A stretch of 64,000 nucleotides of DNA, taken from the NCBI GenBank assembly GCA_019308995.1, contig JAFDHD010000008.1, positions 1-64,000 of the forward strand. The letters run 5' to 3'. The notes beneath the pieces were generated by a model, which worked only from the letters and a program-made list of their open reading frames with translations, ran no database searches and was not told the DNA's origin. The first letter of the stretch is position 1, and every line of letters starts with the position of its first letter. The stretch is from Deltaproteobacteria bacterium (GTDB lineage: Bacteria; Desulfobacterota; Desulfarculia; Adiutricales; JAFDHD01). A program made the position numbers and the translations under genes. Positions 14,173 to 46,799 of this stretch are shown piece by piece.

Positions 14173-14607
14173 ATGAACGTCAGCGTTGATTTCGCAGAGT
14201 TGCTTGATATTTGCGGTATACCTGCCACGCCGCATCGTTTGGCGGTTCTTAAGGTAATTTCTGAAAGCCCGTCTCCGGTGCGGGCCCAGGATATCCTGGA
14301 AAAGCTTCATAAAACCAAAAACATCAACAAGGTCACTGTTTATCGTATCCTGGATTTGTTTGTGGAGAAGCATCTTGTGGAGCGTATCAGCTCCGGAGAC
14401 CGATCATTTCGATATGGGCTGGCCACACAGGTCCACGGCCGGCCTCACGCCCATTTCTACTGCACAACCTGCGGCACCATGGAGTGCTTGAGTCCGGAAG
14501 ATTTAAAGATAGACACCAGGCGGCTAAACCGTGCCTTCCCAGGGGCGATTAAAAAATTCGAAATCCGCCTGGACGGGACCTGCAGTAACTGCCTTAAGAG
14601 CTATTAA
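14173..14607 (+). CDS. zur: Fur-family transcriptional regulator, probably Zur
   Basis: About 144 residues from the ATG at 14173, preceded by ggagaagg. The N-terminal winged helix includes the recognition region around KVTVYRILDLFVEKHL. The dimerisation half has the HAHFYC metal-site segment, a structural zinc pair CTTC and a second pair CSNC at the C-terminus, as in Fur/Zur/PerR. Being last in the znuABC-like operon, whose promoter sits in a perfect palindrome, it probably represses its own operon when zinc is plentiful. The metal is inferred from the neighbours, not from specificity residues. The terminal region abuts a decayed gene on the other strand. Confidence 0.9.
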   Translation: MNVSVDFAELLDICGIPATPHRLAVLKVISESPSPVRAQDILEKLHKTKNINKVTVYRILDLFVEKHLVERISSGDRSFRYGLATQVHGRPHAHFYCTTCGTMECLSPEDLKIDTRRLNRAFPGAIKKFEIRLDGTCSNCLKSY

Positions 14608-14611
14608 AAAA

Positions 14612-15074
<463 letters not shown>

Positions 15075-29624: not shown

Positions 29625-29649
29625 AATTATAGTAAGGAGGACGGACAAC

Positions 29650-30096
29650 ATGGCGAACATACAGTTGTTGTTAGTTGACGATGAAGAAAGGTTTTTAGAA
29701 ACTACCCAAAGACTCCTCAAAAAGAGAGATATCACTACCTATACCGCCACCAATGGCCTGGATGCCCTGAAACTCCTGGACGACCACCGGCTTGACGTGG
29801 CCATTCTCGATGTAAAAATGCCAGGGCTTGACGGCGTGGAGGTGCTGCGCCGGATGAAGAAAAAGCACGCCCTGGTGGAAGTCATCATGCTTACCGGCCA
29901 CGCCTCGGTTGAATCAGCGGTGGAAGGGCTGAAGCTGGGGGCTTTCGATTATCTGGTGAAGCCGTGTGATATTTCAGCCCTGGTGGAAAAGGTGAAGGAA
30001 GCATATGCCAAAAAACAGGGCATGGAAGAAAAGATCCGTAAGGCGAAGATAGACAAAATTATCAAGCATCCCCTGTCAGTGTTTGAAAAAGATTAG
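29650..30096 (+). CDS. stand-alone response regulator receiver
   Basis: About 148 residues from the ATG at 29650, which has aaggagga upstream. The receiver domain has the acidic pocket VDDEE, phospho-acceptor D54 in VAILDVKMPGLDG, Thr in MLTGHAS and Lys in LVKPCDI. A basic tail follows, ending HPLSVFEKD; the PLSV string is shared with the tail of the receiver at 27.4 kb. No output domain. It is 31 bp upstream of the second SLC13-type transporter and may act on it in trans, as the fused receiver would act in cis. Confidence 0.92.
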   Translation: MANIQLLLVDDEERFLETTQRLLKKRDITTYTATNGLDALKLLDDHRLDVAILDVKMPGLDGVEVLRRMKKKHALVEVIMLTGHASVESAVEGLKLGAFDYLVKPCDISALVEKVKEAYAKKQGMEEKIRKAKIDKIIKHPLSVFEKD

Positions 30097-30127
30097 CCTG
30101 CCTCTAAAATTCGGAAAAGGAAAGAAA

Positions 30128-31975
30128 ATGAGCGGTGATACCAAGAAAGCGACCGGATACGATAAGTACATCAACTGGAAGACTTTCATTATTCCTTTAA
30201 CGCTCCTGATCCTCATGCTGATCATTCCAACACCAAAAAGCATGCTTGATGTTGGCGTGGAATACTCGATGGGAACCAAATACGTTCAAGAATTCTTTTC
30301 CAAAGAGCTCTTTAACAAGCCCACTCATGAGTTGTCCCAGTGGCAGATACAGATGATCCGAATGATGGAAACCAGCATCAATAAATCATCATATAGTCAC
30401 GGAACCTTTCAGGCCCGGGATAAAAAGTGGTGCGAGAAAAATAAGATTGCCTGTACAGAGGAGCATCTGGAGCAGGTCAGGGAGTTTGCGCAAAAGATTC
30501 CCCCTGATGAGTTTAAAACGCTAATGCTAAAAGGACAAACGCTCCGGTTAAGTGAGCTGAGTTACGATCAGCTGACGGATCAGGAAAAAAAGAAGGCTAC
30601 CCGAGCTGGATTTCATGTCAAAGTGGCTGTGGGAATCGTGTTGTTTGTCGTACTCTGCTTCCTGACCGAAGCCATGCCGCTTCCCATGGTTGCTTTTTGT
30701 ATCGGTATTATTGCCTTGATGACCGGAATCGTAGACAGGCATAACGTGGCCGCACTCTACTGGTCTGACGCCACCTGGTTCATCATGGGCAGCCTCATGT
30801 TTGCGACGGCCTTTGTCAAGACGGGGCTGGACAGGCGCCTGGCCATGATGATGTTTGGCAGGTTAAAAAACCCAGACATCAAACGGATCACCCTTATCAT
30901 CATCCTGATTATTGCCCCGCTGACTATGTTCATGTCCGACCACGCCCTGGCGGCTATGTTCCTGCCAATCGGCATTTTACTGTATTCGACTTCTACCGCC
31001 GTCTCAGGCCGGGAAGACCCGGAACTGAGCAAGATGCTCATGATTACGATCGCCATGGCCTGCAATCTCGGCGGCTCCCTGGCCCCTTCGGGTGCGGCTC
31101 GAAACATCATCATGATGGGTTATGCAGAGGATATGTTCGGTATCTCCATCGGCTTCGGGCAATGGATGCTTTATTGCGTCCCATACCTCCTCTTTACCGT
31201 GCCGCTGACCTGGTTTATGATCAACTGGCGTTTCAAACCGCACATAACGAACCTGGGCGACTCGATTAATATCGTCAAGGAAGAGATAGTCAAGGACGGC
31301 GGCGGATGGACCCGGGGACAGATTGTTTCCCTGATCATTTTTTTCATTATGCTCTTTTGCTGGATTACGGAAAAGAACCTCATCCTGAATCTGACCGGCA
31401 TACGCTTTGGAATTGGCGTTTTTGCCGTTATGGGGGCCATCGCCTATATCTTTGCTGGTGTTGTAAACTGGCGTGATTACCAGTCTCGCGTGGATTGGGG
31501 CGTGGTTTGGCTTTACGCCGGCGCTATCATCTTTGGTCGTATTCTGGTTATGACAGGCGGGGCTTACTGGCTCGCCCGTTCCATCCTCGAGCTTACGGTT
31601 CCCCTGGGGCTCGGTCAAGGCATCGGCCTCCTCCTGAGCGGAAATGCCATCACGGCCTTTCTGACACAGCTAATGGCTGATGGTCCGGCCTGTGCGGCCG
31701 TGGGGCCTGTGACTCTGGCCATGGCAGGTATCGCCCACCCCGGTTCTGCCATGATTCCATTTGTGGCCATGAGCACAGCCATGGCTTCGTCCCTGGCTTA
31801 CTGCCTGGTCATTGGCACTCCGCCAAACGCCATTGTTTACGCCAGTGGCTATTTAGAGCCAAAGGATTTCCTAAGGGTCGGCGTTATTCTCCTGGTTACC
31901 AACTTAGGTGTGATGATGCTGCTGGCCTCGACATACTGGAGGTGGCTGGGCTGGTCCAACCTGGCGTCTTTCTAA
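30128..31975 (+). CDS. SLC13-type anion transporter (no fused receiver)
   Basis: About 615 residues from the ATG at 30128 (aaaggaaag upstream). It starts with one span (about 18-34), then a hydrophilic loop of about 130 residues, then the SLC13-like core with two inverted repeats. The repeat segments read CNLGGSLAPSG and VIGTPPNAIVY. The expected SNT motifs are SDH (in MFMSDHALAAM) and ADG (in QLMADGPACAA). It is a paralogue of the receiver-fused transporter upstream: same order of span, loop and core, and the same replacements, but no receiver. The extra-large loop between spans 1 and 2 is probably periplasmic. Confidence 0.9.
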   Translation: MSGDTKKATGYDKYINWKTFIIPLTLLILMLIIPTPKSMLDVGVEYSMGTKYVQEFFSKELFNKPTHELSQWQIQMIRMMETSINKSSYSHGTFQARDKKWCEKNKIACTEEHLEQVREFAQKIPPDEFKTLMLKGQTLRLSELSYDQLTDQEKKKATRAGFHVKVAVGIVLFVVLCFLTEAMPLPMVAFCIGIIALMTGIVDRHNVAALYWSDATWFIMGSLMFATAFVKTGLDRRLAMMMFGRLKNPDIKRITLIIILIIAPLTMFMSDHALAAMFLPIGILLYSTSTAVSGREDPELSKMLMITIAMACNLGGSLAPSGAARNIIMMGYAEDMFGISIGFGQWMLYCVPYLLFTVPLTWFMINWRFKPHITNLGDSINIVKEEIVKDGGGWTRGQIVSLIIFFIMLFCWITEKNLILNLTGIRFGIGVFAVMGAIAYIFAGVVNWRDYQSRVDWGVVWLYAGAIIFGRILVMTGGAYWLARSILELTVPLGLGQGIGLLLSGNAITAFLTQLMADGPACAAVGPVTLAMAGIAHPGSAMIPFVAMSTAMASSLAYCLVIGTPPNAIVYASGYLEPKDFLRVGVILLVTNLGVMMLLASTYWRWLGWSNLASF

Positions 31976-32286
31976 AAGACGGAAACGCGCATGAGATAAA
32001 GATTAACGATAGGTTTAGATGCGATGTCGACGCCAAGAAAAGTCCGGCTGCGGATAAAGTACAAAACCATAAGGTTGTCTCAGTCTTATTTCTTTCACAC
32101 TGTCTCGGAGCCGATATTAAATCCTGGGCAGTTCTATAAAGAACAGGCCGTCCATGACAATTGTACTGCCGCTCCTTATTGGCTATGGTTAATGTAACTT
32201 ATGCAGATTCATTTCAAATGATAACCACATCAGATAGAGGCCGTTAGGCCTAGACTTCTTTGAAACCCAAAAGGGGGATTCTTGAA
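31976..32286. other. intergenic gap inside the transporter locus
   Basis: About 310 bp with no credible gene. No strong hairpin terminator is visible. The receiver-CBS gene downstream might have its own promoter here, but none is clear. Confidence 0.5.
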
Positions 32287-33198
32287 ATGGATAAAAAAAT
32301 AAAAGTGCTGATGGTAGATGACGAAGAGCAGTTTCGTGTCACAACTAAAAAGATCCTCGAAAGAAGGGGATTTGAGACGATCCTGGCAGGAAGCGGTGAA
32401 GAAGCCATCGAAAAAATCAAAGAGGGCCCCGACGTGATTATTTTGGATATCAAAATGCCGGGTATGGACGGCCTGGAGGCATTACAGAAAATTAGCGCTC
32501 TCGAAGAGGCCATCCCCGTTATCATGCTCACTGGACATGGTTCTGAGCCATCTGCCAAGCAGGCCTTGCAAGAAGGCGCCTTTGATTATCTGGCCAAGCC
32601 TTGTGATATAAATCTTCTTGCTTCCAAAATCGTGGACGCCTTTCAGCACAGGAAGGAGGAAATCCCGGCTGAAGAAAAACTGGTAAGAGATGTTATGATT
32701 CCCACAGAGGAGTATACCACTCTGACCATGCAAAACACTGTTCAAGATGCCATTGAGAGTTTGAAAGAGTCATTTACAGCCAAAATATCAACCAGTCGCA
32801 TCATGGAAACCGGTCACCGTTCGGTCTTGGTGATTGACCAAAAAGGGAATATGCAGGGCATCCTGACTATTGTGGACCTTTTGCAAGGGATAATGCCTCC
32901 TTACCTTTTCGCTCCCAAGCCTTCCATGGCTGACACCATTCAGTATTCTCCGATGTTTTGGAAGGGCATGTTTACTGGGAATATTCAGGATCTGAGCAAG
33001 AGAAGCCTGCAAGAAATCATGTCACCGGCGCCCCCTACCATTGCCGACGATAAAAACCTCATGGAAGCTGCCTACACTCTGGTGAAAAATCAAGCCCGAA
33101 GATTGGCCGTCATGCGCGAAGGTAAATTGGTGGGAGTGGTTCGAGAGCAGGATTTATTTTTTGAAATGGAGAGGATTTTAGGGAAAACGATTAAATAA
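32287..33198 (+). CDS. receiver-CBS protein
   Basis: About 303 residues from the ATG at 32287, preceded by aaaaggggg. The receiver (1-120) has acidic pocket DDEE at 11-14, phospho-acceptor D54 in VIILDIKMPGMDG, Thr in MLTGHGS and Lys in LAKPCDI. A CBS pair follows (about 137-300): VRDVMIPTEEYTTLTMQNTVQDAI opens the first CBS motif, SVLVIDQKGNMQGILTIVDLL closes it, then LQEIMSPAPPTIADDKNLMEAA and RRLAVMREGKLVGVVREQDLFFEM form the second. CBS pairs bind adenine nucleotides and often gate channels and transporters. This could tie the phosphorelay to cellular energy state. It ends the locus; a convergent Hdr operon begins 116 bp further. Confidence 0.92.
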   Translation: MDKKIKVLMVDDEEQFRVTTKKILERRGFETILAGSGEEAIEKIKEGPDVIILDIKMPGMDGLEALQKISALEEAIPVIMLTGHGSEPSAKQALQEGAFDYLAKPCDINLLASKIVDAFQHRKEEIPAEEKLVRDVMIPTEEYTTLTMQNTVQDAIESLKESFTAKISTSRIMETGHRSVLVIDQKGNMQGILTIVDLLQGIMPPYLFAPKPSMADTIQYSPMFWKGMFTGNIQDLSKRSLQEIMSPAPPTIADDKNLMEAAYTLVKNQARRLAVMREGKLVGVVREQDLFFEMERILGKTIK

Positions 33199-33314: not shown

Positions 33315-35777
33315 CTAGACAGCCTCTTTTTCAGCGTCCTTTGCCTTTTTGCCTTTGGACTTGCTTTTCTGTTCCAGCAGTATACGTTTGGTCTCGGCTA
33401 CCTCTTCCTCGGTCACGCTTCGCCTCAATTGTTCCATTTTCTCCATGACCTCTTTGAAGCGAACGCCTTCAGCAGCACTGATCCATTCCAGCTGAAGCCT
33501 CTCCGAACGGATGCCTAAACGTCCCATTTTTTTCCACATCCTTTTGACGCGCCGCTCTGTCCAGTGATTGGCGTCAATGTAGTGGCAGTCTCCGATATGG
33601 CAGCCTGAAACCAGCACCACGGGCGCTCCCTTCTCAAAAGCACGCCATATGAACTTATCGGTCACCCGGCCTGAGCACATGGTTCGGATCAGCCGAGCAT
33701 TTGATGGATATTGAAGCCGGGACACACCCGCGAAATCCGCGCCAGCGTATGAACACCAATTGCAGGCAAAGGTCAGGATGCGATCCATGGACTCCTCTTC
33801 GAGGAGGGCGTCAATCTGCGCCTCGATTTGCGCATCGGTGAAATGATGCATCTCGATGGCGCCGGCGGGGCACTCTGCCGCACAGGCGCCGCACCCGGCG
33901 CATGCTGCGGTAGTGACAAGCGCCGGAGTTTTGGATCGGGTATCCACGCTGATGGCGTTAAAAGGGCAGACCTTGGCGCAGATACCGCAGGATGTGCATA
34001 ACTGCGGGTCCACCTCAGCGGTCATGGCTTCCACCTTGAGCTTGCCAGGCGTCATGAGCCGCATGGCCCGCGAAGCCGCGGCTGAGGCTTGTGTGACCGA
34101 TTCCCTGATATCCTTGGGCCCTTCAGCGCAGCCGGCGAAGAAGATACCACGGGTGGCGGAATCCATCGGCTGCAGCTTGGGATGGGCTTCAAGATAGAAG
34201 CCGTCTGAGCTTTTTTGCAAGGCCAGCATTCCCTGAATTACCTTCATATCCTCGGGCGGATTCACACCAACGGCCAGGATCACCATGTCAGCGCGGTGAG
34301 TTTCGAGCTCATTAGTTGAAGTGTTCTCTACCGTCAGGATAAGATTTTTGGTCTTGAGCTCTTCCTTGATCGAGCCGGGCAAGCCCCGGATATAGCGTAC
34401 CCCCACGCCTCTGCTGCGCCGGAACAGGTCCTCAAAACCCTTACCAACAGCCCGGATATCTATATAAAAGACCTTGATGTCAATATCAGGATAATGCTCC
34501 TTGAGCATGAGCGTGCTTTTAACCGTGTTCATACAGCAAATGTTGGAACAGTAAGGGTTACCCCTCCGCTGCGAACGAGAACCGACGCACTGGATAAACG
34601 CCACAGATTCTGGCCGCTTCCTGTCTGTAAGCCTGATAACCTCGCCCTGGGTGGGTCCGCCAGCGTTGATTAACCGCTCCAGTTCCATTGAGGTCAGCAC
34701 ATTCTCGTAGCGGGTGTAGCCGTATTCATCGAGCACGGTCGGATCATAAAGGTCCATGCCCGTAGCCACGATGATGGTCCCGATTTTGAAAGTCAGTTCC
34801 TCGTCGTTCATATTGAAGTCAATACAGTTTTTTTCGCATTTTTCGATGCACTTTCCGCAGATGATAGGATTATGTCCGAGGCAGCTGTCAATATCAACCA
34901 CATAGGATGAAGGAACCGCCTGGGGGAAAGGCTGATAAATAGCCCGCCTGGAGCTGAGTCCCATGTTGAATTCATCCGGTACGATAACCGGGCAGACGTC
35001 AACGCAGTCGCTGCAGGCGGTGCACTCATCCTCCACAACATACCTGGCCTTCTTAAGGATGTGTACCTCGAAGTTGCCGACGTACCCCGTGGCTGATTTA
35101 ACTTCACTCAGTGATAGTAAGGTTATGTTTGGATGTCGCCCGACATCCGTCATCTTCGGACCCAGTATTCAGATGGAGCAGTCCATGGTTGGAAACGTTT
35201 TGTCCAGCCTGGCCATAATCCCGCCGACACTGGGTTCTTTTTCGACCATGATTACTTTGAAACCGGAGTCGGCAAGGTCAAGAGCCGCCTGGATTCCCGC
35301 CACCCCGCCGCCAATGATCAAGGTGGTTTGTTCGATCGGCACCTCAATTTCAACCCTGAGACTGAGATGTCGGGCGCGGGCGATGGCCGAACGCACCAGG
35401 TCCTTGGCCTTGAGCGTGGCCCCTGCCGGGTCATTGGTGTGAACCCAGGAGCATTGCTCGCGAAGATTGGCCATTTCCAGGAGATAAGGATTCAGCCCGG
35501 CTTCCTGGATACATTGCCTGAAAGTCGGTTCATGAAGTCGTGGCGAGCAGGAAGCAGCAACCACGCGATTGATGCCGTGCTCCTTGATATCAGCCTTGAT
35601 CTGGTTCTGGCCCGGCTCTGAGCAGAGGTAGGCGTCATGACGGGAGATCACCACATCGGGCAGACCCTCCGCATACTCGGCCACCGCTTCGCAGTCCACC
35701 ACCCCGGCTATATTCAAACCGCAGTGGCAAACGTACACGCCGATCCGAATTTCATCATTGGCTTCTTTTGATAGCAT
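33315..35777 (-). CDS. hdrA: HdrA-MvhD fusion, probable selenoprotein (UGA at 35169-35171 read as Sec)
   Basis: 820 residues if the in-frame TGA at codon 203 is selenocysteine. The N-terminal 140 residues are the HdrA cap domain (VYVCHCGLN). The FAD-binding motif is [11 protein letters not shown]. The cluster motif is MDCSI-Sec-ILGPKM, where other HdrA proteins have Cys. Four-Cys motifs follow at about 252-263, then CCM-containing repeats and two [4Fe-4S] ferredoxin motifs at about 594 and 626. An MvhD-like domain from about 672 ([11 protein letters not shown]) ends the protein. Both halves are strongly conserved in one frame with nothing missing. HdrA is the flavin subunit that bifurcates electrons. 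Last gene of the Kor/Hdr operon; ribosome binding site aggaag. Confidence 0.88.
35131..35171 (-). promoter_or_regulatory. UGA codon and bacterial SECIS-like hairpin
   Basis: The UGA is at 35171-35169. Twenty bases later the message folds into a hairpin with 7-bp arms (GGATGTC and its complement) and a GGGC loop at 35148-35131. The loop begins 27 bases after UGA and starts with G, which fits the published description of bacterial SECIS elements (loop 16-37 bases after UGA, G in the first two loop bases). Confidence 0.7.
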
Positions 35778-35878: not shown

Positions 35879-37075
35879 TCATCTCTTCTCCGATCCAATT
35901 GCCTTCTCTCCTTCCGACCACTCGATTCGATCAGCCAGCACGTTCGCCAGGTCGCGGATTTCCATGGAAAGAGAACCGCGCTGGACTGGGTCCCGCATGG
36001 CGCAGGTCAGGTGGATCATGCACTTGGGACAGGCGGTGACCAAAAGGTCCGCTCTGGTCGCTTTGGCTTCTTTGAGTCGCTCGATCTGAATTTGCTTGGA
36101 GTAAGCGTCACAATTGATAAAACTATTGTTCCCGCAGCAGATGGCGCTGTGCCTCGAATTTTCCATTTCCTTTAGCGCCAGATCGGGAATCATGTTGAGC
36201 AAGGCACGCGGCTCCTCGTACCGACCTAACGTTCGGCCCAATCGGCATGGATCCTGGTAAGTTGCCTTTCGTTTAAAAGGCTTAAATGACACGCCTCCTT
36301 TACGGATCTCCCGCTCCAAGAGATCAATGAGCAGGGTTACCTTGAGGTCAAATTCCGGGATTACTTCAGGCATGAAGCAACTTAAAACCTGGTAGCATTC
36401 CGGACAGGACACCACGACCTCCTCGACCCCGGCGGCCTTGAACTCCTCATAGTTCAGCCAGCAGAGAGTCTCGAAGTTCTCCCTGTCTCCGGTCCAGAGA
36501 AGATCGTGTCCGCAGCAGCGCTCTTCAGACAGGATTACCGGCTCGATATCCAGGAAATTCAATAGTCGGATGCTGTCTCGGGTGATGGAAAGGGTATCCA
36601 CTTCAATCCCGGCAAAGAAGACATCGAAATACGGCGTGCATCCGGTGAAGAAGGCTATGGGGCCAGACTCTGCGACCTTGAGGTCTGGAACGAGCCAGTC
36701 CATCCGATTCTGTTCGAGATCGGGAGACGTCATCATCCTCATCCAGGAATGCAAGGCCCCATCGTGAGCCCGGTAGCCCTTGAGGCCCTTGGCCTTGGCG
36801 AGAATGGTTCGCATTTCTAAAATGAATCGGCTGAACTCAATGCCAGAAGGACAGCGTTCCTCGCAAAGCCCGCAGGTCAAGCACTCCCAGACCGAGTTCT
36901 CGATAAAGGCCTCGTCTTCCGGTTCGACGATAAGCTTCTGAGCCAGAAGTCTGGGTGAGTACTCCTTACCAGTAAGCATCCTGGGGCAGGACGCGGAGCA
37001 TTTGCCGCACTCCAGACACATGTAGAGGGACCTGTCCCTGATGATCTCTTTGATCTTGGGATGGTCCAGCTTCAT
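35879..37075 (-). CDS. heterodisulfide-reductase-like iron-sulfur protein (HdrC-HdrB fusion, HdrD type)
   Basis: About 398 residues from the ATG at 37075, which overlaps the upstream stop (ATGA) and has gggagg before it. The HdrC-like N-terminus has two [4Fe-4S] motifs (CLECGKCSASCP and CLTCGLCEERCP). Two CCG domains follow. The first has C in FFTGC, CCG in ERCCGHDL and CPEC. The second has C in YQDPC, CCG in AICCGNNS and CPKC. Both sets are complete, so both non-cubane [4Fe-4S] clusters of HdrB-type active sites could form. The natural disulfide or electron acceptor in non-methanogens is not settled; DsrC or thiol proteins are candidates. Cytoplasmic. Confidence 0.9.
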   Translation of the reverse strand: MKLDHPKIKEIIRDRSLYMCLECGKCSASCPRMLTGKEYSPRLLAQKLIVEPEDEAFIENSVWECLTCGLCEERCPSGIEFSRFILEMRTILAKAKGLKGYRAHDGALHSWMRMMTSPDLEQNRMDWLVPDLKVAESGPIAFFTGCTPYFDVFFAGIEVDTLSITRDSIRLLNFLDIEPVILSEERCCGHDLLWTGDRENFETLCWLNYEEFKAAGVEEVVVSCPECYQVLSCFMPEVIPEFDLKVTLLIDLLEREIRKGGVSFKPFKRKATYQDPCRLGRTLGRYEEPRALLNMIPDLALKEMENSRHSAICCGNNSFINCDAYSKQIQIERLKEAKATRADLLVTACPKCMIHLTCAMRDPVQRGSLSMEIRDLANVLADRIEWSEGEKAIGSEKR

Positions 37076-37498: not shown

Positions 37499-40400
37499 TC
37501 AGCGTTCCCCGGCCAGGGTGCCCATGACGATCTCTTCGAGCAGTTGATTGGAAAAATAAGGCATATCCATGGCTGTGACCGGGCAGCGGCCAACGCAACC
37601 GCCGCAGCCGACGCAGTTATATCGCAACACTTCAGCCGTATAAATACCTCTATGGTCGGACACCAGCGTTACCGCGTCAAACGGGCAGATCTCAACGCAG
37701 CGGCCGCATCCTCTACACCGCTCCGGGTCAACGCGGGGACTTAACTGGTGATCCTTCAAGAACGCTTCAGCCGCAGCGGTGGCCACCTCAGCAGCCAGGG
37801 CCGCGCCAGCCTCGTAAGCGCTCACCCTCTTCAAGGTTCGAGGCAAAACCCGGTACAGCCCGACTTGAGGCGAATGAAAAAAAGCGAAATCATAGCGGTA
37901 GAATTTCTTGAGACCCATCATATCTTCATGAATGGCAAGCGGCAGCACGTTCTCATCAGTCAGGCAGACGATATCAGCGCGCCACCGCCGCCGGGCGGCC
38001 CCATCCCTGGCCGTGACCCTGAAGTCCCCGATGTGACCCTGAATCTCCCCGATCTCCGCCTCTTTCACTAAACTGATAGACCGGTCAAGACCTCGAGGCG
38101 CACGCCTTTTACGGATCTCCTCGGGGAGGTCCGAGCCTGGGAGCCGGCACCGGTTGACCAGCTTCACTTTAAATCCTTGAAGCGCTAAATTTTTAGCGCA
38201 GCTTATACCAACCTCCGAACCGCCCAGAATCAAAATTTGCCTGCCAATTTCGGTTATGCCTTGCCTTAACGGCCCCATGAAGCGGGATCGGATAAAGGCC
38301 GCCCGAAGAAGGTCCCTGGCTCTTTCAACAATCTCATCCTCTGATTGATCTCCGCTTAGCAGGTGGTCACGCAGATTGATCATCTCGAAACGGCTGCGTT
38401 CCAGTCCCAGCCGCTCGAAAAGATGAATCCTGGCACGGTTTCGCTGATCATTGCATGAGATGCATTGGAACTCCAGCGGACAGCAAACGCATGAAGCCAG
38501 GATTACCCGCGCCAGATGGTTTTCGCGCACGGCCCGGGCGATCCTCTCCGCCCCGCCGGGGTGGCAGGCTGAAAAAATCAATTCGCTATGTTCGATCCCG
38601 GGGATTGAATCGGCCAGTTCACGTATGCGCTCGAGCGCGCTCTGAGGCGCCATGGTCCCATTGCAGGTGCAAAGGAAAAATCCAAGCCGCATCTCGTCAG
38701 GCCAGCCGAGCGTTTCTGTTTCCACTGGAACTGACGAAGCCCTGAGATTCAGTGTCTCGGCCATGATTCGGCCAGCCGTGGCGCTCCCCGCCACCAGCAC
38801 GTCCATGAGGTCGGTAGCGCCCTGGAAATGTTCTGCCTTATAAATGCCTTCACCAAACTCAGAGACTGGTTCAGGCAGCTCCGCTTCGTCAGCCACGAGC
38901 ACGGCCGGAGTTTCGAGCTCGATGTGCTCGCCGGTTCTGAAGTGATTGATAGCGCCGATATCAACACAGACCGACTCGCACAACCGACACTCACAGCAGC
39001 TACTGCACTGCAGGCATCGTTTTGCTTCGGAGATCGCCTGTTCGGTCGTGAAACCGAGGTCCACTTCAAGAAAGTCACGACGCCGTGCTTGGGGCTGTCG
39101 CTGAGGCATCTCCTGTCTGGGCTGTTTGGGAACATCCTCTGAAATCTCTACATAGTCGCCAACACCGCGTGTCTCAGCCATGAATTCTTCAAACGGGAAC
39201 GGCTTCCGGGTCAGATATTCTATAATTCGCCCGGCTGCCATGCGGCCGTCAGCCATGGACTGTATGACGGTGGAAGGGCCGGTAACCACATCACCGGCTG
39301 CGAAAACACCCTGGCAGGAGGTACGCAGCTTCCTGTCCACTACCAGCCTTCCCCCGGGTCCGGTTTTGAGCGCTTTATCCAGGCCTGACTGATCGAGATG
39401 CGGCCTTTGGCCAATGGCGACAATGACCGTGTCCGCATCCAGGGTAAAGGTTTTTTCGGAGTCGAACACGATTCGGGGCGGCGCTGATTCAGAAAATTCC
39501 CAGTGAGCCGGACGACAGATAACCCGCTCCACCAGTCGGTCTCCTTCAAATGCAACTGGCGCAGCGCCAAGCCTGAATCGAACACCTTCTTCTCCGGCTT
39601 CACGAACCTCATCGGGACTGGCGGGCAATTCGTCTTCTTTTTCAATAGCCAGCACCGTAACCTCTGCTGAACCCAGCCGTAAGGCCGTTCGCGCCGCATC
39701 CATGCTTGAATTGCCGCCGCCAATGATAACGGTGCGAGCGCCAACCTCGCCCTGGCCTTTGATATTGACGCCGGTGAGGAACTTAACGCAGGGATGGATA
39801 CCCTCCAGATCCTCACCGGGGATGTTGAGTCTGAGGTCAGAATGCGTCCCTGTTGCCAGGAGAATCGCTTTGTAGCATTGATCGAACAGTTTCTCAATGG
39901 AACTTATCGTGGTGTTGGTCTGTATTTTCACTCCCAGGTCAGCCAGGGCCTTGATTTCCGCATCCAAAACCTTTCGGGATAATCGAAAGGCGTTGATCCC
40001 GGCCCGCAGCATCCCACCGGCTTTAGGGAAGGATTCGAATATGGTGACCTTAAACCCTGCCCGGTGGAGGAAATACGCCGCGGTGAGGCCTGAGGGGCCG
40101 GACCCGATGATGGCCACTCTTTCCGGACGTTCCTTCCGCTCAGGTATCTTGAATCGAGGTGGACCCTGCGCAGCCTCGTAATCAAAAAGAAAGCGTTTCA
40201 GAGCGCGAATCGCCAGTGGCTGGTCAAGGTCGCTCCTGCGGCAGGATGACTCGCAAGGGTAATGACAAACACGGCCGCACACGCCGGGTAAGGGGTTGTC
40301 TTCTCTGATAACCGCCAGGGCCTCTTCAAAACGACCGGCCGCAGTGAGGGCCATATATGCCTGTACGTTCACCCCCAAGGGACAGCTCTCTCGACAGGGA

Positions 40401-40855
40401 CTGACTTTTCTCTTGTCCAGCTCGAGCGCCCGGGAGGGGCAGTAAGCTGGAGTACGTGACAGGGGAGGCTGATCACTCTCCTGCAGGGGACAGATTTCCA
40501 TGCAGCGGCTGCAGCCTATACAGAGGTCGTAATCAATATACATTGGAGACTGCTCGACTACCACCTTATAGCCGTCTCCACTTTTATCAATGGACGTGAC
40601 GTGCGCTCGAGTCAGCGTCGTGATCAGGGGGTGACGAGTCACCCGCAGGTAGAGAGGTCTGAACTGGAAGTTAAGGTCTTCGGGCCATTCCCTGAAGCCT
40701 TCAATCCCACCTGGCAGCTCAAGGAAATGCTGGGCCCGAGTGACCCAAACCGCCGGAATGGCAGACTGGGCCATATCCTCTGCGATCTTGAGAGCCCCGT
40801 ATCCCGAACCCAGAATCAATACCGCATTTTTCGGCGTTTTCGATTTTTCAGTCAC
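37499..40855 (-). CDS. giant HdrA/GltD-like flavin and iron-sulfur fusion protein
   Basis: 1118 residues, GTG start overlapping the korC stop (GTGA). Order: HdrA-like Rossmann segment (about 10-105); [4Fe-4S] motif CIGCSRCMEICP near 112; GltD-type Cys motifs CRESCPLGVNVQAYM and CGRVCHYPCESSC; FAD motif IIGSGPSGLTAAYFLHRAG; NAD(P) motif IIGGGNSSMDAA; GVFAAGDV; a Cys-dense segment CLQCSSCCECRLCESVC; a second HdrA-like half with LILGGSEVGISCAKNL; and two terminal ferredoxin motifs CRGCGRCVEICP and CVGCGGCVGRCP. Proteins with GltD-type modules exchange electrons with NAD(P)H. It could link NAD(P), ferredoxin and Hdr in one polypeptide. The frame is uninterrupted. Confidence 0.88.
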   Translation of the reverse strand: MTEKSKTPKNAVLILGSGYGALKIAEDMAQSAIPAVWVTRAQHFLELPGGIEGFREWPEDLNFQFRPLYLRVTRHPLITTLTRAHVTSIDKSGDGYKVVVEQSPMYIDYDLCIGCSRCMEICPLQESDQPPLSRTPAYCPSRALELDKRKVSPCRESCPLGVNVQAYMALTAAGRFEEALAVIREDNPLPGVCGRVCHYPCESSCRRSDLDQPLAIRALKRFLFDYEAAQGPPRFKIPERKERPERVAIIGSGPSGLTAAYFLHRAGFKVTIFESFPKAGGMLRAGINAFRLSRKVLDAEIKALADLGVKIQTNTTISSIEKLFDQCYKAILLATGTHSDLRLNIPGEDLEGIHPCVKFLTGVNIKGQGEVGARTVIIGGGNSSMDAARTALRLGSAEVTVLAIEKEDELPASPDEVREAGEEGVRFRLGAAPVAFEGDRLVERVICRPAHWEFSESAPPRIVFDSEKTFTLDADTVIVAIGQRPHLDQSGLDKALKTGPGGRLVVDRKLRTSCQGVFAAGDVVTGPSTVIQSMADGRMAAGRIIEYLTRKPFPFEEFMAETRGVGDYVEISEDVPKQPRQEMPQRQPQARRRDFLEVDLGFTTEQAISEAKRCLQCSSCCECRLCESVCVDIGAINHFRTGEHIELETPAVLVADEAELPEPVSEFGEGIYKAEHFQGATDLMDVLVAGSATAGRIMAETLNLRASSVPVETETLGWPDEMRLGFFLCTCNGTMAPQSALERIRELADSIPGIEHSELIFSACHPGGAERIARAVRENHLARVILASCVCCPLEFQCISCNDQRNRARIHLFERLGLERSRFEMINLRDHLLSGDQSEDEIVERARDLLRAAFIRSRFMGPLRQGITEIGRQILILGGSEVGISCAKNLALQGFKVKLVNRCRLPGSDLPEEIRKRRAPRGLDRSISLVKEAEIGEIQGHIGDFRVTARDGAARRRWRADIVCLTDENVLPLAIHEDMMGLKKFYRYDFAFFHSPQVGLYRVLPRTLKRVSAYEAGAALAAEVATAAAEAFLKDHQLSPRVDPERCRGCGRCVEICPFDAVTLVSDHRGIYTAEVLRYNCVGCGGCVGRCPVTAMDMPYFSNQLLEEIVMGTLAGER

Positions 40856-41448
40856 CGTTGCGCTTTCCCCCGGCTCCGATCTTGCTTAGACCTGCTCTTG
40901 AGTATGGCCGCCCCATACTCCCGTCCACGGTCAAATGCCTGGGAGTTGCTTTCCTTGGTGCGGGGCGGCACCGAGCTGAGCACGGCTTCTTTGAGGGACT
41001 CGACGGTGACAAGGTTGCTGATTACTGATAAGAAGCCGAGCATTACGATGTTGGCCATCATCTTATTGCCCAGTTCTTCAGCGAACCTGGTGGCTGGAAT
41101 ATGGTAAGCCGACCAGTTTGGGTCGAGGTTCTTGGGTTGGACTAAATCGGTATCCCACACGAGAAGTCCCTTAGCGACAAGGGATTCCACGTTTTTCTCA
41201 TAGCCTTCCTGGTTCATGCAGATCAATACTTCTGGCTGCTCCACGTAAGGAGAGAGGATCTCCTCGTCACTTATGATGAGCTGGGAGGAGCAGGACCCAC
41301 CGCGGGCCTCAGGTCCGTATGACTGAATCATGATGGCGTGCCGACCGTCGTAGATAGTTGCCGCCTTGCCCAGGATGTTGCCGGTCAGGATGATGCCCTG
41401 ACCGCCGAATCCGGTAATAACAACTTCTGTTTCTTTTTTAGCCGCCAT
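40852..41448 (-). CDS. korC: 2-oxoacid:ferredoxin oxidoreductase gamma subunit (KorC-like)
   Basis: 198 residues. GFGGQGIILTGNILGKAA opens the family-typical catalytic gamma domain, followed by QSYGPEARGGSCSSQLIIS. The C-terminal 20 residues are very basic. It forms the fourth part of a Kor-type enzyme (alpha, beta, gamma, delta), which oxidatively decarboxylates 2-oxoglutarate or a similar oxoacid to the acyl-CoA with ferredoxin as acceptor. It lies 5 bp after korB, and its stop overlaps the GTG of the giant flavoprotein. Confidence 0.93.
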   Translation of the reverse strand: MAAKKETEVVITGFGGQGIILTGNILGKAATIYDGRHAIMIQSYGPEARGGSCSSQLIISDEEILSPYVEQPEVLICMNQEGYEKNVESLVAKGLLVWDTDLVQPKNLDPNWSAYHIPATRFAEELGNKMMANIVMLGFLSVISNLVTVESLKEAVLSSVPPRTKESNSQAFDRGREYGAAILKSRSKQDRSRGKAQR

Positions 41449-41453
41449 GGGTG

Positions 41454-42353
41454 TTAGCTTGAGGCCTGCTCTTCTGGCACAAAGGCCTTCGGTTCGAGAG
41501 TCGGCCAGTCTCCCAGCTCTCGGCGATTCATCAATTGGTAATTATCCAGGAATGTGGGACGTTCTATGTCCACAAACGTGCCGACTACCAGGTTTTTATT
41601 GAAGTCCAGGACCGCGTCTTGAGGGTCTATGCCGTTTCTGATGACTGAACGTTCATGAAAGAACCGAACGAGATCAAGAGGGTTGCGGATCCTGTTGCGC
41701 CGGCCGAATGAGGTCGGGCAGGGAGATAGGATTTCGACGAAGGAAAAGCCCGGTTTTTGCATGGCCTCGGAGATCGAGCCGGTGAGCCTTCGGATATGAA
41801 GTGCGGTCCAGCGGGCCACATAGACAGCTCCACAGGAGGCCGCCAGGGCGCACATATTAAACGGCTCCTCGGGACTCCCGACAGGGCTGGTGGTCGTTTT
41901 GGCTCCAAAGGGTGTGGAAGGAGCGAGCTGGCCGCCGGTCATGCCATAGTTGAAGTTATTGACACAGATGACGGTGAGGTCCATATTGCGCCGGGCGGCG
42001 TGGATGAAGTGGTTGCCACCGATGGCCAGAAGATCGCCATCGCCTGAAGCAACGATGACACACCCTTCAGGATGGGCAAGTTTCAATCCGGTGGCAAAGG
42101 GAATGGCGCGGCCGTGGGTGGTATGGAACGAATCCAGTTTAATGTACCCTGCCATTCTGCCCGTGCATCCGATGCCCGATACCATGGCTATATCATCAAG
42201 CTCAAATTCGGATTTCTGAATAGCCGCGATGACGCAGCTGAACACGGTGCCAATCCCGCAGCCGGGGCACCAGATGTGAGGCAGGCGGTCGGTCCGCAAG
42301 AGCTCGTCTTGCGGATGCCGCTGTACAGCCTTTTTCTTTCTTTTAGCGCTCAT
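41454..42353 (-). CDS. korB: 2-oxoacid:ferredoxin oxidoreductase beta subunit (KorB-like, TPP-binding)
   Basis: 299 residues. The cluster/TPP start IWCPGCGIGTV is followed by SGIGCTGRMAGY and the thiamine diphosphate motif GDGDLLAIGGNH, with NNFNYGMTGGQ (Asn holds Mg2+). These are the hallmarks of KorB/OforB subunits. The N-terminal residues are basic. The start ATG overlaps the korA stop by one base frame (ATGA). The enzyme is oxygen-sensitive and cytoplasmic. Confidence 0.95.
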   Translation of the reverse strand: MSAKRKKKAVQRHPQDELLRTDRLPHIWCPGCGIGTVFSCVIAAIQKSEFELDDIAMVSGIGCTGRMAGYIKLDSFHTTHGRAIPFATGLKLAHPEGCVIVASGDGDLLAIGGNHFIHAARRNMDLTVICVNNFNYGMTGGQLAPSTPFGAKTTTSPVGSPEEPFNMCALAASCGAVYVARWTALHIRRLTGSISEAMQKPGFSFVEILSPCPTSFGRRNRIRNPLDLVRFFHERSVIRNGIDPQDAVLDFNKNLVVGTFVDIERPTFLDNYQLMNRRELGDWPTLEPKAFVPEEQASS

Positions 42354-43510
42354 GACGCCTCCTTAAGCGTCGCTTCGATAGCCTCAAGGATGGTCCTGGG
42401 TCTGATGATGGCCCCGCCGGGATGGGAAACCAGCTGTACATGGCAACGACCGGCAGCACACCGTTCGAGTTCAAGCACCATCTGACCCATGTTGATCTCC
42501 GCCATGATCATGGCCTTCACGCTGCCGGCCAGATCATGGATCATCTTTTCCGGGAAGGGCCATACTGTATTCAGTTTAATAAAACCGGCCCGAAGCCCCT
42601 TTCCCCTGGCATCCATAATTGCCCGCCTGGCTGACCTCGCGCTGATGCCGTAAGAAACCACCACCACCTCAGCATCGTCCATGTAAAAATTTTCGTAATT
42701 TATAATTTTGTCGGCATTAGCCCGGATCTTCCTGAGGAGCCTGTTTATCATTTGCTCCTGGGCGGTAGCGTCCATAACCGGGTATCCGCGCTCATCATGG
42801 GTTAGACCGGTGACATGCATGCGAAAGCCGTCTCCAAAATCCGCCATGGGCGCCACGTGGTCACGATCCGGCTTATAAGGTAGATACTTCTTCGGGGAAA
42901 CCGACGGCTTTTTACGGTTGACAATCTTAATTTTACCTTGGGCAGGAATCACCACCCTCTCAATCATGTGTCCCACGACCTCATCCGCCATGATCATGAC
43001 TGGCACCCGGTACTGCTCCGCAAGATTGAAGGCCCAGATGGTGAAGTCGAACATCTCCTGAGGTGACGATGGTGATACGGCGATGATCTCATAATCTCCA
43101 TGGGAGCCCCAGCGCGCCTGCATCATGTCCGCCTGGCCCACAAGCGTAGGCAACCCGGTGCTGGGACCGGCTCGCTGCACGTTGCAAACCACACAAGGCA
43201 CCTCGGTACATGCTCCCAGGCCGATGTTTTCCATCATCAGGGAAAACCCCGGCCCCGAAGTACTGGTCATAGCCTTGACGCCTCCCCAGCTTCCTCCCAG
43301 GACAGTGGCCATGGCGGCCATCTCGTCCTCCATCTGGATGAAGGTGCCGCCCACCTCGGGCAGCCGCTGCGACATCCGCTCGGCAGTCTCCGTGGCCGGC
43401 GTAATGGGATACCCGGCGAAAAGGCGACAACCAGCGGCTAAGGCTCCCTCACAGCAAGCCTCATCTCCATTCATGAAATGAATTCCGGTTAATACCGCCT
43501 GCCCGGGCAC
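42350..43510 (-). CDS. korA: 2-oxoacid:ferredoxin oxidoreductase alpha subunit (KorA-like)
   Basis: 386 residues from a GTG with aaaggag upstream. The pyrimidine-binding domain begins NGDEACCEGALAAGCRLFAGYPITPATE, a typical KorA start. MTSTSGPGFSLMMENIGLG follows, and the C-terminal domain includes VVVSYGISARSARRA. The lack of a fused gamma domain and the presence of separate gamma and ferredoxin genes point to the four-subunit 2-oxoglutarate type, though branched-chain or aryl oxoacids are possible. The gene lies about 140 bp after the ferredoxin gene and overlaps korB. Confidence 0.95.
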   Translation of the reverse strand: MPGQAVLTGIHFMNGDEACCEGALAAGCRLFAGYPITPATETAERMSQRLPEVGGTFIQMEDEMAAMATVLGGSWGGVKAMTSTSGPGFSLMMENIGLGACTEVPCVVCNVQRAGPSTGLPTLVGQADMMQARWGSHGDYEIIAVSPSSPQEMFDFTIWAFNLAEQYRVPVMIMADEVVGHMIERVVIPAQGKIKIVNRKKPSVSPKKYLPYKPDRDHVAPMADFGDGFRMHVTGLTHDERGYPVMDATAQEQMINRLLRKIRANADKIINYENFYMDDAEVVVVSYGISARSARRAIMDARGKGLRAGFIKLNTVWPFPEKMIHDLAGSVKAMIMAEINMGQMVLELERCAAGRCHVQLVSHPGGAIIRPRTILEAIEATLKEAS

Positions 43511-44382: not shown

Positions 44383-45822
44383 ATGGAACCATCAATAAAA
44401 AAACTTGACTATCTTTTTGCGCCCCGGTCCGTAGCGGTCATTGGAGCTTCAGGAAGTTTTGGCAAATGGGGTTTTGGCATTATCCACCAGGTACTCAAAT
44501 TCAAAGGTGATTTCTCGGTTTATCCTATCAACCCTAAGATGAAGGAAGTCCTCGGAGTCAAGGCTTACCAAAACATCACCCGTGTCCCTGGAGACATAGA
44601 TTTTGCGGTGATTGTCATTCCGCCGCAGAACGTTCCAGCGGCCATGGCAGATTGCGCGTCAAAGGGAGTCAAGGCAGTCCTGGTCATCACGGCCGGTTTC
44701 AGGGAGATTGGTGAAGAGGGGGCCAGGCTTGAAGCCGAGATGCTGCAGATCGCGAGGCAGGCCGGAATAAGGGTGGCGGGGCCGAACTGCAACGGCCATT
44801 TCAACACGGCCATAAATTTATTTACCATGGGCATTCGTGGAATTAAACCGGGCCCCCTGAGCCTCATCTCCCAGAGCGGTAACTTCGGGGGCTTTATTGT
44901 CGGACAGGGCATTGAGAGAGGGATCGGCTTCAGCAAGTACATCAGCAGCGGGAACGAAGCGGATGTGACGATCGAGGATTACATCGAATATCTGGGTGAT
45001 GATCCGGAAACCAAAATTATCTGCGCCTATGCAGAGGGACTCAAGGACGGAAGGCGTTTTTTCAACCTGGCTCGAAACATTACCAGGGAAAAACCGATCA
45101 TCATGATGAAGGTTGGCCGGACCGAGGAAGGGGCAAACGCAGCTAGGTCGCACACCGGCTCTTTGAGCGGTTCGACCGTTATCCACGATGCGGCCTTGCG
45201 TCAGGCGGGTGTGATTCAGGTTTACAAGGCGGATGAGATGCTGGACGTTGCCTCAGCCTTGATTCGTCAGCCCCTGCCTCGAGGCAGAAGGGTTGGGATT
45301 GTCACCGGCGGCGGCGGTTTTGGTGTTGTGGCCGCGGACGCATGTCGAAGCCTCGGTCTTGAAATTCCTGAATTATCCGAAGAAACCATTACTAGCCTGA
45401 ACCGATGGATGCCTTCGCGCTGGTCCCATGCCAATCCGGTGGATATGGCCGGAGACTCTTACGGCTCCATCCCCACTCTGGGCACCATGCTCAAATCTGA
45501 GAACGTGGATGCGGTACTGGCGGTAAGCTGCCTCGGATTTCCTGCCCAGCCGCCTGAGGAGTTTCCGCTTGAAATCCGGGAAGAATTCAAGAAGTACCAA
45601 AAACAGATGGTAGAGGGGGAAGTCTCTCTTATGGATGGTTTGATCGAACGCATGGAACGGTATAACAAGCCGCTCATCATCGCCGCGGTCAGCGGTCGCG
45701 ACCGGTCTAAGGCGATTGCCAAACTGGAGGAAAACGACATTTACACCTACCGCTCACCCGAGGATGCCGCCAGTGTCATGGCTTACCTGGCAAATTACGC
45801 CGACTATCTTTCCAGATCGTAA
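44383..45822 (+). CDS. acyl-CoA synthetase (ADP-forming), alpha-subunit type
   Basis: 479 residues. CoA-binding domain with SVAVIGASGSFGKWGFGI, then VAGPNCNGHFN, the ligase-CoA domain with SLISQSGNFGG, and the phospho-acceptor His in ARSHTGSLSGS. The order is that of the alpha chain of ADP-forming acetate-CoA ligase, which forms ATP from an acyl-CoA, ADP and phosphate. The ATP-grasp beta part is missing here, and no beta gene is next to it, so the partner must be elsewhere. aggagg precedes the ATG. A good promoter lies 170 bp upstream. Leads a cluster with a hydrolase and a dienoyl-CoA-reductase-like gene. Confidence 0.9.
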   Translation: MEPSIKKLDYLFAPRSVAVIGASGSFGKWGFGIIHQVLKFKGDFSVYPINPKMKEVLGVKAYQNITRVPGDIDFAVIVIPPQNVPAAMADCASKGVKAVLVITAGFREIGEEGARLEAEMLQIARQAGIRVAGPNCNGHFNTAINLFTMGIRGIKPGPLSLISQSGNFGGFIVGQGIERGIGFSKYISSGNEADVTIEDYIEYLGDDPETKIICAYAEGLKDGRRFFNLARNITREKPIIMMKVGRTEEGANAARSHTGSLSGSTVIHDAALRQAGVIQVYKADEMLDVASALIRQPLPRGRRVGIVTGGGGFGVVAADACRSLGLEIPELSEETITSLNRWMPSRWSHANPVDMAGDSYGSIPTLGTMLKSENVDAVLAVSCLGFPAQPPEEFPLEIREEFKKYQKQMVEGEVSLMDGLIERMERYNKPLIIAAVSGRDRSKAIAKLEENDIYTYRSPEDAASVMAYLANYADYLSRS

Positions 45823-45881
45823 GAGAGACTCAAAGCAATGATTTGGACTGTAGCGTTAACAATGAATGAAGGAGAGGGATT

Positions 45882-46718
45882 ATGTCCTGGTTAGAAAAGG
45901 GAAACATTCGGCTTTATTATGAAGACGTGGGTAAAGGAGCGCCGATTATAACCAATCATGGTTTAAGTGAGGATTGCGGTTACTGGAGCGAGACGGGCGT
46001 TACCGCGAAATTAGCTGAAAATTACAGAGTTATTTCTATAGACATGCGGGGTCATGGCCGCACGGTGGTCGAGGGCGAGCCTTATGGTTACGATGCGGAC
46101 ACCATGGCTGATGACTTTGATACGCTCGCTGACGAATTGGGTCTGGAACGGTTCCATTTATTGACGCATGCCACTGGCGGGATGGTCGGTGTGCGTTATG
46201 CCATGACCAGGTCTGATCGGCTTATCAGCCTTATGCTGACCGACACCGGTTCTGCCACATTGGTTGAAATGCCTGATCAAGAGGAGATCACAGAGCAGGA
46301 GCGCGCCGCGCGAATAAACAGGATGCTGACTGCGACCGTAGAGGAAAAGATGGCCAGAATTAAAACCGAACCGGGACCTTTCCTGTTTAAGATGGCTGAA
46401 CACCCGAACAATGAAGGGATGTGGAAGATTTATGAAGGATTCCTGCGCCGCCAGAATCCAAAGGCAGTCCTGGATTTTATATTGAGCTTTTATACTGATC
46501 CTGACCCGCGGGTTGAATCGCTCAGACAGATCAAGTGCCCGACCCTGATCTTGCTCGGTGAATTCGACGTCGTCTTTCTGAAGCCGAGCGCCTTGATGGC
46601 CAGGGAAATTCCGGACGCAAGGCATGTGATTCTGGATGGTCTCGGACATATGACGGCCATTGAAGACCCGGAGCGAACGATAAAGGAGCTCCTTAATTTT
46701 CTTAAAACCCTTTCTTGA
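45882..46718 (+). CDS. alpha/beta hydrolase-fold protein with altered nucleophile elbow
   Basis: 278 residues. The fold is clear: TNHGLSEDCGYWS oxyanion loop, IDMRGHGRTVVE, PTLILLGEFDVVF (acid) and LDGLGHMTAIEDPE (His). The elbow, however, reads LLTHATGGMVG: where L-x-GHS-x-GG is expected the nucleophile Ser is Ala. It may use a neighbouring Thr, be a non-hydrolytic member (such as RutD-like or cofactor-free enzymes) or be inactive. aggagagg-like ribosome binding site. It lies 59 bp after the acyl-CoA synthetase and 81 bp before the flavoprotein, so probably the same operon. Confidence 0.88.
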   Translation: MSWLEKGNIRLYYEDVGKGAPIITNHGLSEDCGYWSETGVTAKLAENYRVISIDMRGHGRTVVEGEPYGYDADTMADDFDTLADELGLERFHLLTHATGGMVGVRYAMTRSDRLISLMLTDTGSATLVEMPDQEEITEQERAARINRMLTATVEEKMARIKTEPGPFLFKMAEHPNNEGMWKIYEGFLRRQNPKAVLDFILSFYTDPDPRVESLRQIKCPTLILLGEFDVVFLKPSALMAREIPDARHVILDGLGHMTAIEDPERTIKELLNFLKTLS

Positions 46719-46799
46719 GCTACGGGAAGCCGGTCAGTCCAAGGACCTGTTGATATTTTATTTCCATACTAATTCGACTATGTTCCCGGGAGAAGTGAA

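Follow-up and report, generated by a model that had tools for sequence, protein, structure and literature searches.

A GltD-containing HdrA fusion with degenerate HdrA flavin sites, encoded between 2-oxoacid:ferredoxin oxidoreductase and heterodisulfide reductase genes in Desulfobacterota

The HdrA protein of heterodisulfide reductase (Hdr) systems is built of an N-terminal cluster domain, a flavin domain whose two parts flank an inserted ferredoxin, and, at the C terminus, a further ferredoxin, and E356 and K409 are its flavin-positioning and N5 residues (PMC12054007). Chains joining HdrA to GltD are already known, namely HdrL (PMC2702500), HdrA9-11 of ANME-1 (PMC9012536) and type III HdrA (PMC12054007). 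In addition, the reductive tricarboxylic acid (rTCA) gene cluster of Ca. Endoriftia places KorABCD, a 2-oxoacid:ferredoxin oxidoreductase (Kor), between HdrA and HdrBC, with Flx as the NADH module (PMC11636981), and the HdrA1 protein of D. multivorans has been detected in cells grown on butanol, propanol or butanoate (PMC5109826). The present work concerns an HdrA-GltD fusion encoded in a 64,000-nucleotide stretch (the window from here on; positions 1 to 64,000 of contig JAFDHD010000008.1, assembly GCA_019308995.1) from Deltaproteobacteria bacterium, of the Desulfobacterota. As judged from its sequence, this protein is a degenerate HdrL or type III HdrA with a single flavin adenine dinucleotide (FAD), in GltD, and not the self-contained bifurcating enzyme of the original prediction.

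The predicted chain of 1118 residues proved to be a single open reading frame (ORF) of 1118 codons, occupying positions 37499-40855 exactly, on the minus strand and with a GTG start; a plus-strand reading of the same positions was ruled out by its many stops. The proposed search for the same domain order recovered it in 41 of 395 genomes of the phylum (counted at E <= 1e-150) and at 11 further loci of named genomes, one of them a fragment, and because the order recurs in this way, the architecture is not a product of chance. A search of plasmids found no full-length relative. In searches of the host genome, run for one protein family at a time, dsrA scored above the cut-off, and the host is for this reason probably a sulfite/sulfate reducer; of a carbon monoxide dehydrogenase-type protein only a part was found.

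The fusion opens with part 1 of an HdrA flavin domain and the first cluster of the inserted ferredoxin (residues 8-126; the first 126 residues align with HdrA 152-268 of 8rvu), followed by GltD (150-550). Further along lies a stretch (623-667) with the second cluster of the inserted ferredoxin and the first residues of flavin part 2, fused directly to the last residues of that part (668-701). The remainder consists of the HdrA N-terminal domain (720-868; residues 723-902 match HdrA2 1-170), a second remnant of flavin part 1 to which just the end of part 2 is attached (873-1034), and a C-terminal ferredoxin (Pfam/NCBIfam match at 1041-1098; residues 1033-1117 against the HdrA C-terminal ferredoxin, E 2e-17). 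Both the HdrA-type N-terminal cluster domain and the two-cluster C-terminal ferredoxin are present. The two HdrA-like parts that the original prediction had placed around GltD are hence genuine as HdrA-derived pieces but not as functional halves, both being without flavin part 2 and the FAD fingerprint.

This fingerprint, GxGxxG...E, is complete in neither HdrA-derived Rossmann piece in any of 38 relatives (0/38), which read GSGYGA or GATPAG in the first piece and GGSEVG or GESEAA in the second. The middle of flavin part 2, some 190 residues that would hold the counterparts of E356 and K409, is gone from both HdrA copies of the fusion, and a hidden Markov model of this segment gave no significant match among the 38 fusion proteins (E >= 0.19); the same model gave E 1e-104 on the separate HdrA of the window and E 8e-119, in two copies, on a 1491-residue HdrL of the same genome. 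The ligand motif of the HdrA Cys197 type, DCSxC/U, was not found in the fusion, and there is no Cys in residues 1-111. The protein therefore lacks the FAD fingerprint, E356/K409 and the Cys197-type motif by which a bifurcating HdrA is recognized. With HdrL and type III HdrA it shares a GltD inserted in the inserted-ferredoxin domain, but, unlike them, it has no complete HdrA flavin domain. A GxGxxA sequence with an Arg in the N-terminal piece was considered as an NADPH site and dropped, as it is seen only in group 1 of the relatives and is lost in group 2. Because both HdrA Rossmann fingerprints, the Cys/Sec (selenocysteine) motif and the E356/K409 segment have been lost while the GltD motif is intact, one FAD per chain is expected. 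Self-contained bifurcation was thus contradicted by the very outcome that its proponents had named as decisive, the loss of key flavin residues from both HdrA-like parts on alignment, across the 38 relatives.

The full-length HdrL of the same genome (L061:12172-16647, in contig C14 of genome G000, minus strand, with MvhD next to it) shares 37% identity with fusion residues 12-655. Besides GltD it contains two HdrA flavin domains, and the E356/K409 segment is present in both; CCMYAIK is kept in the first copy, where the second has CCSHSVQ. This HdrL would be a better candidate than the fusion for a self-contained, multi-flavin bifurcating protein.

The GltD module, in turn, is as complete as predicted. 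Pfam and NCBIfam scans matched Fer4_20 at residues 151-230 (E 2e-22), Pyr_redox_2 at 246-537 (E 5e-45) and PRK12771 at 147-648 (E 4e-142), the last with 474.8 bits, under the curated cut-off of 516, which a short variant described below (type B) passes with 527. The FAD (GSGPSG) and NAD(P) (GGGNSS) motifs are intact in the fusion and across its relatives, GxGPxG being kept in 38 of 38 aligned proteins, which supports the anticipated NAD(P)-linked flavin chemistry within an HdrA scaffold. The Arg pair typical of NADPH-binding GltD (YRR) is replaced by AIE in the window protein; YRR occurs in some relatives, and SWF in most of the distant ones (group 2).

An AlphaFold2 model of the fusion, built on 33 aligned sequences, reached a predicted local distance difference test score (pLDDT) of 81 and a predicted template-modelling score of 0.77. 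Its top fold matches in the PDB were chains of NfnABC, StnABC and NfnAB, the GltD part folding like NfnA/NfnB with a TM-score (by target) of up to 0.80 against NfnB. When residues 638-1118 were modelled alone (pLDDT 76), HdrA chains came first (E 2e-18 to 6e-16), and the alignment to HdrA took about 670 columns for 481 residues, which is consistent with deletions in the HdrA-derived C-terminal part.

The Fe-S motifs of the fusion would suffice for seven [4Fe-4S] clusters, possibly eight, exceeding the five or more cysteine-rich regions first noticed. Invariant or nearly invariant Cys 112/115/118/122 and 620/623/626/630 account for one cluster each; Cys 154/158/193/197/201/205 together with 614/617 presumably ligate two GltD-type clusters; Cys 729/731/764/789 form one cluster of the HdrA N-terminal type; and Cys 1047-1057 and 1081-1091 provide two more. 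An extra conserved set, Cys 791/792/798/801, belongs to a motif in the HdrA N-terminal-like domain (CVCCPLxFxCxxCNDQR, residues 789-801, window 38453-38491) that is absent from the canonical HdrA of the window and could bind a further cluster.

The genes surrounding the fusion form an operon on the minus strand, in the order KorD-KorA-KorB-KorC, fusion, MvhD, HdrCB and HdrA, with 4-base overlaps at KorA/KorB, KorC/fusion and MvhD/HdrCB. All four Kor subunits are present: alpha, beta (which binds thiamine pyrophosphate, TPP), gamma and the delta ferredoxin. Their matches to the 2-oxoglutarate-type models PRK09627 and PRK09628 stay below the cut-offs and denote family similarity alone. The operon is complete in 15 wide regions and the shorter loci agree as far as their contigs reach; MvhD and HdrCB are fused in distant relatives. 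The MvhD-HdrCB-HdrA tail lies 3' of the fusion in every locus that allows checking.

The HdrA of this tail aligns over its full length with 5odc_A (E 3e-239) and looks like a conserved selenoprotein: an in-frame TGA falls at the same codon in 23 of 23 distinct loci examined, it is followed by a hairpin resembling a selenocysteine insertion sequence (SECIS; consensus GGATGYC-GGKC-GRCATCC across loci, with compensatory T-A/C-G changes), and selB is present in the host genome. The hairpin came from folding, and an Rfam scan of the operon for SECIS or other RNA gave no match. The TGA splits HdrA into two ORFs, which annotation pipelines would call a broken gene. At another locus (L060:13058-15140) HdrA has a second break, between an ORF that ends at 14572 and another that starts at 14664, either a frameshift or a true split of the MvhD domain. 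Since this separate HdrA, three genes downstream of the fusion, keeps the FAD motif and the E356/K409 equivalents (Table 1), the bifurcating flavin of the system most likely sits there.

What is read directly here is gene order, conservation, the cofactor motifs kept or lost and the signatures of a Sec-containing HdrA; from these we infer a complex, its electron path, substrate and direction. The fusion is, on balance, probably an adaptor that oxidises NAD(P)H, or reduces NAD(P)+, for a complex between Kor and a heterodisulfide-reductase-like enzyme, and it has kept only the GltD FAD; the Kor substrate is probably 2-oxoglutarate. In such a complex, hydride would be exchanged between NAD(P)H and the GltD FAD, and single electrons would pass between this FAD, the GltD-type [4Fe-4S] clusters and the C-terminal two-cluster ferredoxin of the fusion, and from there to and from the stand-alone MvhD and the FAD of the separate Sec-containing HdrA. 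At the HdrA FAD, the electron pair would be split or merged (bifurcation or confurcation), with a low-potential branch exchanging electrons with Kor/ferredoxin at about -500 mV, and a high-potential branch leading by way of HdrCB to a disulfide or an acceptor like it. What remains of HdrA in the fusion would serve as scaffold and Fe-S conduit, inherited from an HdrA ancestor.

Further information came from variants of the cluster, traced by following the same group of Kor genes into genomes that lack a full-score fusion (three fusions in those genomes were shorter, truncated by a contig end or under the score cut). In G031 and G068, of another family of the phylum, KorDABC is followed by a protein of 660 or 685 residues composed of GltD and the C-terminal ferredoxin only, and then by MvhD, HdrCB and HdrA (type B); KorA and KorD of G068 are cut by the contig end, and HdrA of G031 is only partly seen. 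Because these short proteins (L084:11918-13897, L085:2531-4585) occupy the operon slot of the fusion with just those two domains, they point to GltD plus C-terminal ferredoxin as its functional core. The idea that type B arose by loss of the HdrA halves was set aside: in a GltD tree all full fusions (type A) group together (SH-aLRT support of 93, at an open fork), type B is not nested within them, and an independent origin is equally possible. In type C clusters, seen in G102 and G009 and in less complete form in G285 and G041, an unsplit HdrA-MvhD and HdrC/HdrB come after KorDABC, and the adjacent genes include no GltD module. At L089, L092, L094 and L096, KorDABC lies directly 5' of the unsplit HdrA-MvhD, with HdrC/HdrB also in L089 and L094, so these Kor-Hdr links have no obvious NAD(P)H port. 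The link between Kor and Hdr is thus independent of the fusion, as type C clusters join the two without it. At a separate locus (L093:2745-7140), the Kor genes precede an HdrC-like gene, and a fumarate reductase flavoprotein resembling TfrA is encoded farther along; electrons might pass from Kor to fumarate here.

Three points weigh against the proposed adaptor role. Gene neighbourhood, from which the complex is read, can mean co-regulation only; in four genomes (G229, G067, G252 and G208) the stretch read shows a related Kor with no Hdr beside it; and the replacement of YRR by AIE or SWF leaves it uncertain whether the fusion would use NADH or NADPH.

An unlikely alternative is that the fusion acts as a PadH-like subunit, passing Kor electrons to NAD(P)+ in an NAD(P)-linked 2-oxoacid dehydrogenase, with HdrABC separate and no bifurcation through the fusion. 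The overlap of its gene with korC and the weak matches of NCBIfam Pad models to the Kor subunits fit this idea, as does the GltD-like subunit of NADH-linked phenylglyoxylate dehydrogenase. However, it leaves aside the MvhD-HdrCB-HdrA tail, present after the fusion at every testable locus, and the strict conservation of the HdrA-type C-terminal ferredoxin. It is still less probable that the GltD FAD itself bifurcates in the manner of the NfnB b-FAD, giving the operon two bifurcation sites, the GltD FAD and the HdrA FAD: the best sequence and fold matches are indeed NfnABC, StnABC and NfnAB chains, and the b-FAD of NfnB is thought to be the bifurcating site of NfnAB (PMC9012536), but in glutamate synthase this module works as an ordinary hydride/one-electron switch, the operon has no gene for an NfnA-type partner, and the diagnostic differences are not legible in a sequence. 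That the fusion bifurcates alone, with flavins in its HdrA-like parts and GltD, is very improbable, for although its single chain combines domains derived from HdrA with numerous Fe-S clusters and a true HdrL with such potential exists in the same genome, the intact FAD fingerprints, the E356/K409 segment and the Cys/Sec ligands that this would require are missing.

Returning to the adaptor role, its wider form is more tentative: a dedicated Kor-Hdr-NAD(P)H complex, widespread among sulfate-reducing and syntrophic Desulfobacterota, may directly link the oxidation of 2-oxoglutarate, or succinyl-CoA carboxylation in the reductive direction, with NAD(P)H and a disulfide through bifurcation at the Sec-containing HdrA, the fusion being a former bifurcating enzyme turned adaptor after loss of its bifurcating flavins. 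The Kor step is among the most strongly reducing of the tricarboxylic acid (TCA) cycle and its reverse. If the proposal is true, this normally ferredoxin-driven step would be made reversible with NAD(P)H, which bears on the working of the oxidative and the reductive TCA cycle near equilibrium, and were the Kor-HdrABC-NAD(P)H link fixed and conserved, many anaerobes would run or reverse the step by electron bifurcation. It would also mean that HdrA has been reused as a non-bifurcating adaptor, a warning that an HdrA-GltD architecture does not by itself predict bifurcation.

Table 1. Features of the fusion and its operon, with positions in the window.
Feature	Fusion residues	Window positions	Strand
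HdrA-GltD fusion, 1118 aa (degenerate HdrL); proposed NAD(P)H/FAD/Fe-S adaptor		37499..40855	minus
First HdrA-derived Rossmann piece; degenerate FAD fingerprint (GSGYGA, no Glu ending strand 2), HdrA Cys/Sec motif lost	8-102	40550..40834	minus
[4Fe-4S] motif CxxCxxCxxxC, first cluster of HdrA inserted ferredoxin; GltD inserted after it	112-122	40490..40522	minus
GltD/NfnB module: DPYD-type Fe-S domain, FAD site 246-256, NAD(P) site 377-385	150-550	39206..40408	minus
Cys 614/617 (invariant; likely shared with GltD clusters) and 620/623/626/630 (second inserted-ferredoxin cluster)	614-630	38966..39016	minus
HdrA flavin part 2, collapsed to a remnant; deletion of ~190 residues, E356/K409 among them, at the 667/668 junction	623-701	38753..38989	minus
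HdrA N-terminal cluster domain (CxC...C...C) with extra conserved Cys (CVCCPLEFQCISC)	720-868	38252..38698	minus
Remnant of a second HdrA Rossmann piece, degenerate (GGSEVG without Glu); inserted ferredoxin and E356/K409 absent	873-1034	37754..38239	minus
HdrA-type C-terminal ferredoxin, two [4Fe-4S] clusters; proposed MvhD dock	1036-1115	37511..37750	minus
KorD-like ferredoxin subunit, 89 aa		43652..43921	minus
KorA, 2-oxoacid:acceptor oxidoreductase alpha (PRK08659, 572 bits, above cut-off)		42350..43510	minus
KorB, beta (TPP) subunit		41454..42353	minus
KorC, gamma subunit; 4-base overlap with fusion start		40852..41448	minus
Stand-alone MvhD/FlpD, 141 aa		37072..37497	minus
HdrC-HdrB fusion (HdrD/TfrB-like); two ferredoxin clusters, two complete CCG domains		35879..37075	minus
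HdrA with C-terminal MvhD domain, read through in-frame TGA (Sec); FAD motif, E356 and K409 equivalents kept		33315..35777	minus
TGA, proposed selenocysteine codon at HdrA Cys197 position (DCSI-U-ILGPKM)		35169..35171	minus
SECIS-like hairpin GGATGTC-GGGC-GACATCC, 20 nt past TGA		35131..35148	minus

Beside the operon, genes on the opposite strand (44383-48761) encode an acyl-CoA synthetase (ADP-forming) alpha-like protein, an alpha/beta hydrolase and a 653-residue reductase resembling old yellow enzyme and BaiCD. Past its 3' end, also on the opposite strand (27927-33198), lie a histidine kinase, two response regulators and a DASS-type anion symporter. No tRNA was found in the window.

Among known systems, the D. 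autotrophicum HdrL (Desulfobacterium autotrophicum; PMC2702500) resembles the fusion in having HdrA and GltD on one chain, an adjacent MvhD gene and Sec in the system; however, a Kor link is not described there, and in the window protein both HdrA flavin domains have collapsed. Type III HdrA and HdrA9-11 of ANME-1 and Bathyarchaeota (PMC12054007, PMC9012536) likewise carry GltD/NfnB in the inserted-ferredoxin domain, after the first cluster, but they are described with the flavin domain kept, whereas in the family studied here that domain is gone and a second, degenerate copy of HdrA is present. The chains of NfnB, of GltD and of NfnA from NfnABC (4ylf, 5jca, 9n5u, 9bov, 8oh5) contain the same FAD/NAD(P)/two-cluster module, at about 35-38% identity; their partner domains differ, and the NADPH-type Arg pair is replaced in the fusion. 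The Hdr-Flx cluster of Ca. Endoriftia (PMC11636981) also encodes Kor, HdrABC and an NADH module together, although that module is Flx there and an HdrL-derived fusion here, where HdrA is moreover a putative selenoprotein with a fused MvhD. In D. multivorans, the hdrA1 locus (Dmul_C02770/80, mvhD1, Dmul_C02800; PMC5109826) similarly brings together a Sec-containing HdrA, MvhD and a pyridine-nucleotide oxidoreductase; the paper describes neither a Kor link nor an HdrA-GltD fusion, yet hdrA1-mvhD1-Dmul_C02800, compared by description only, is probably the ortholog of the window locus. A search of the open-access literature, subscription papers being outside its scope, found no description of a Kor-Hdr-HdrL cluster in this phylum. 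What appears to be new is thus the loss of both HdrA flavin sites throughout a fusion family, together with the invariant operon of Kor, fusion, MvhD, HdrCB and a putative Sec-containing HdrA.

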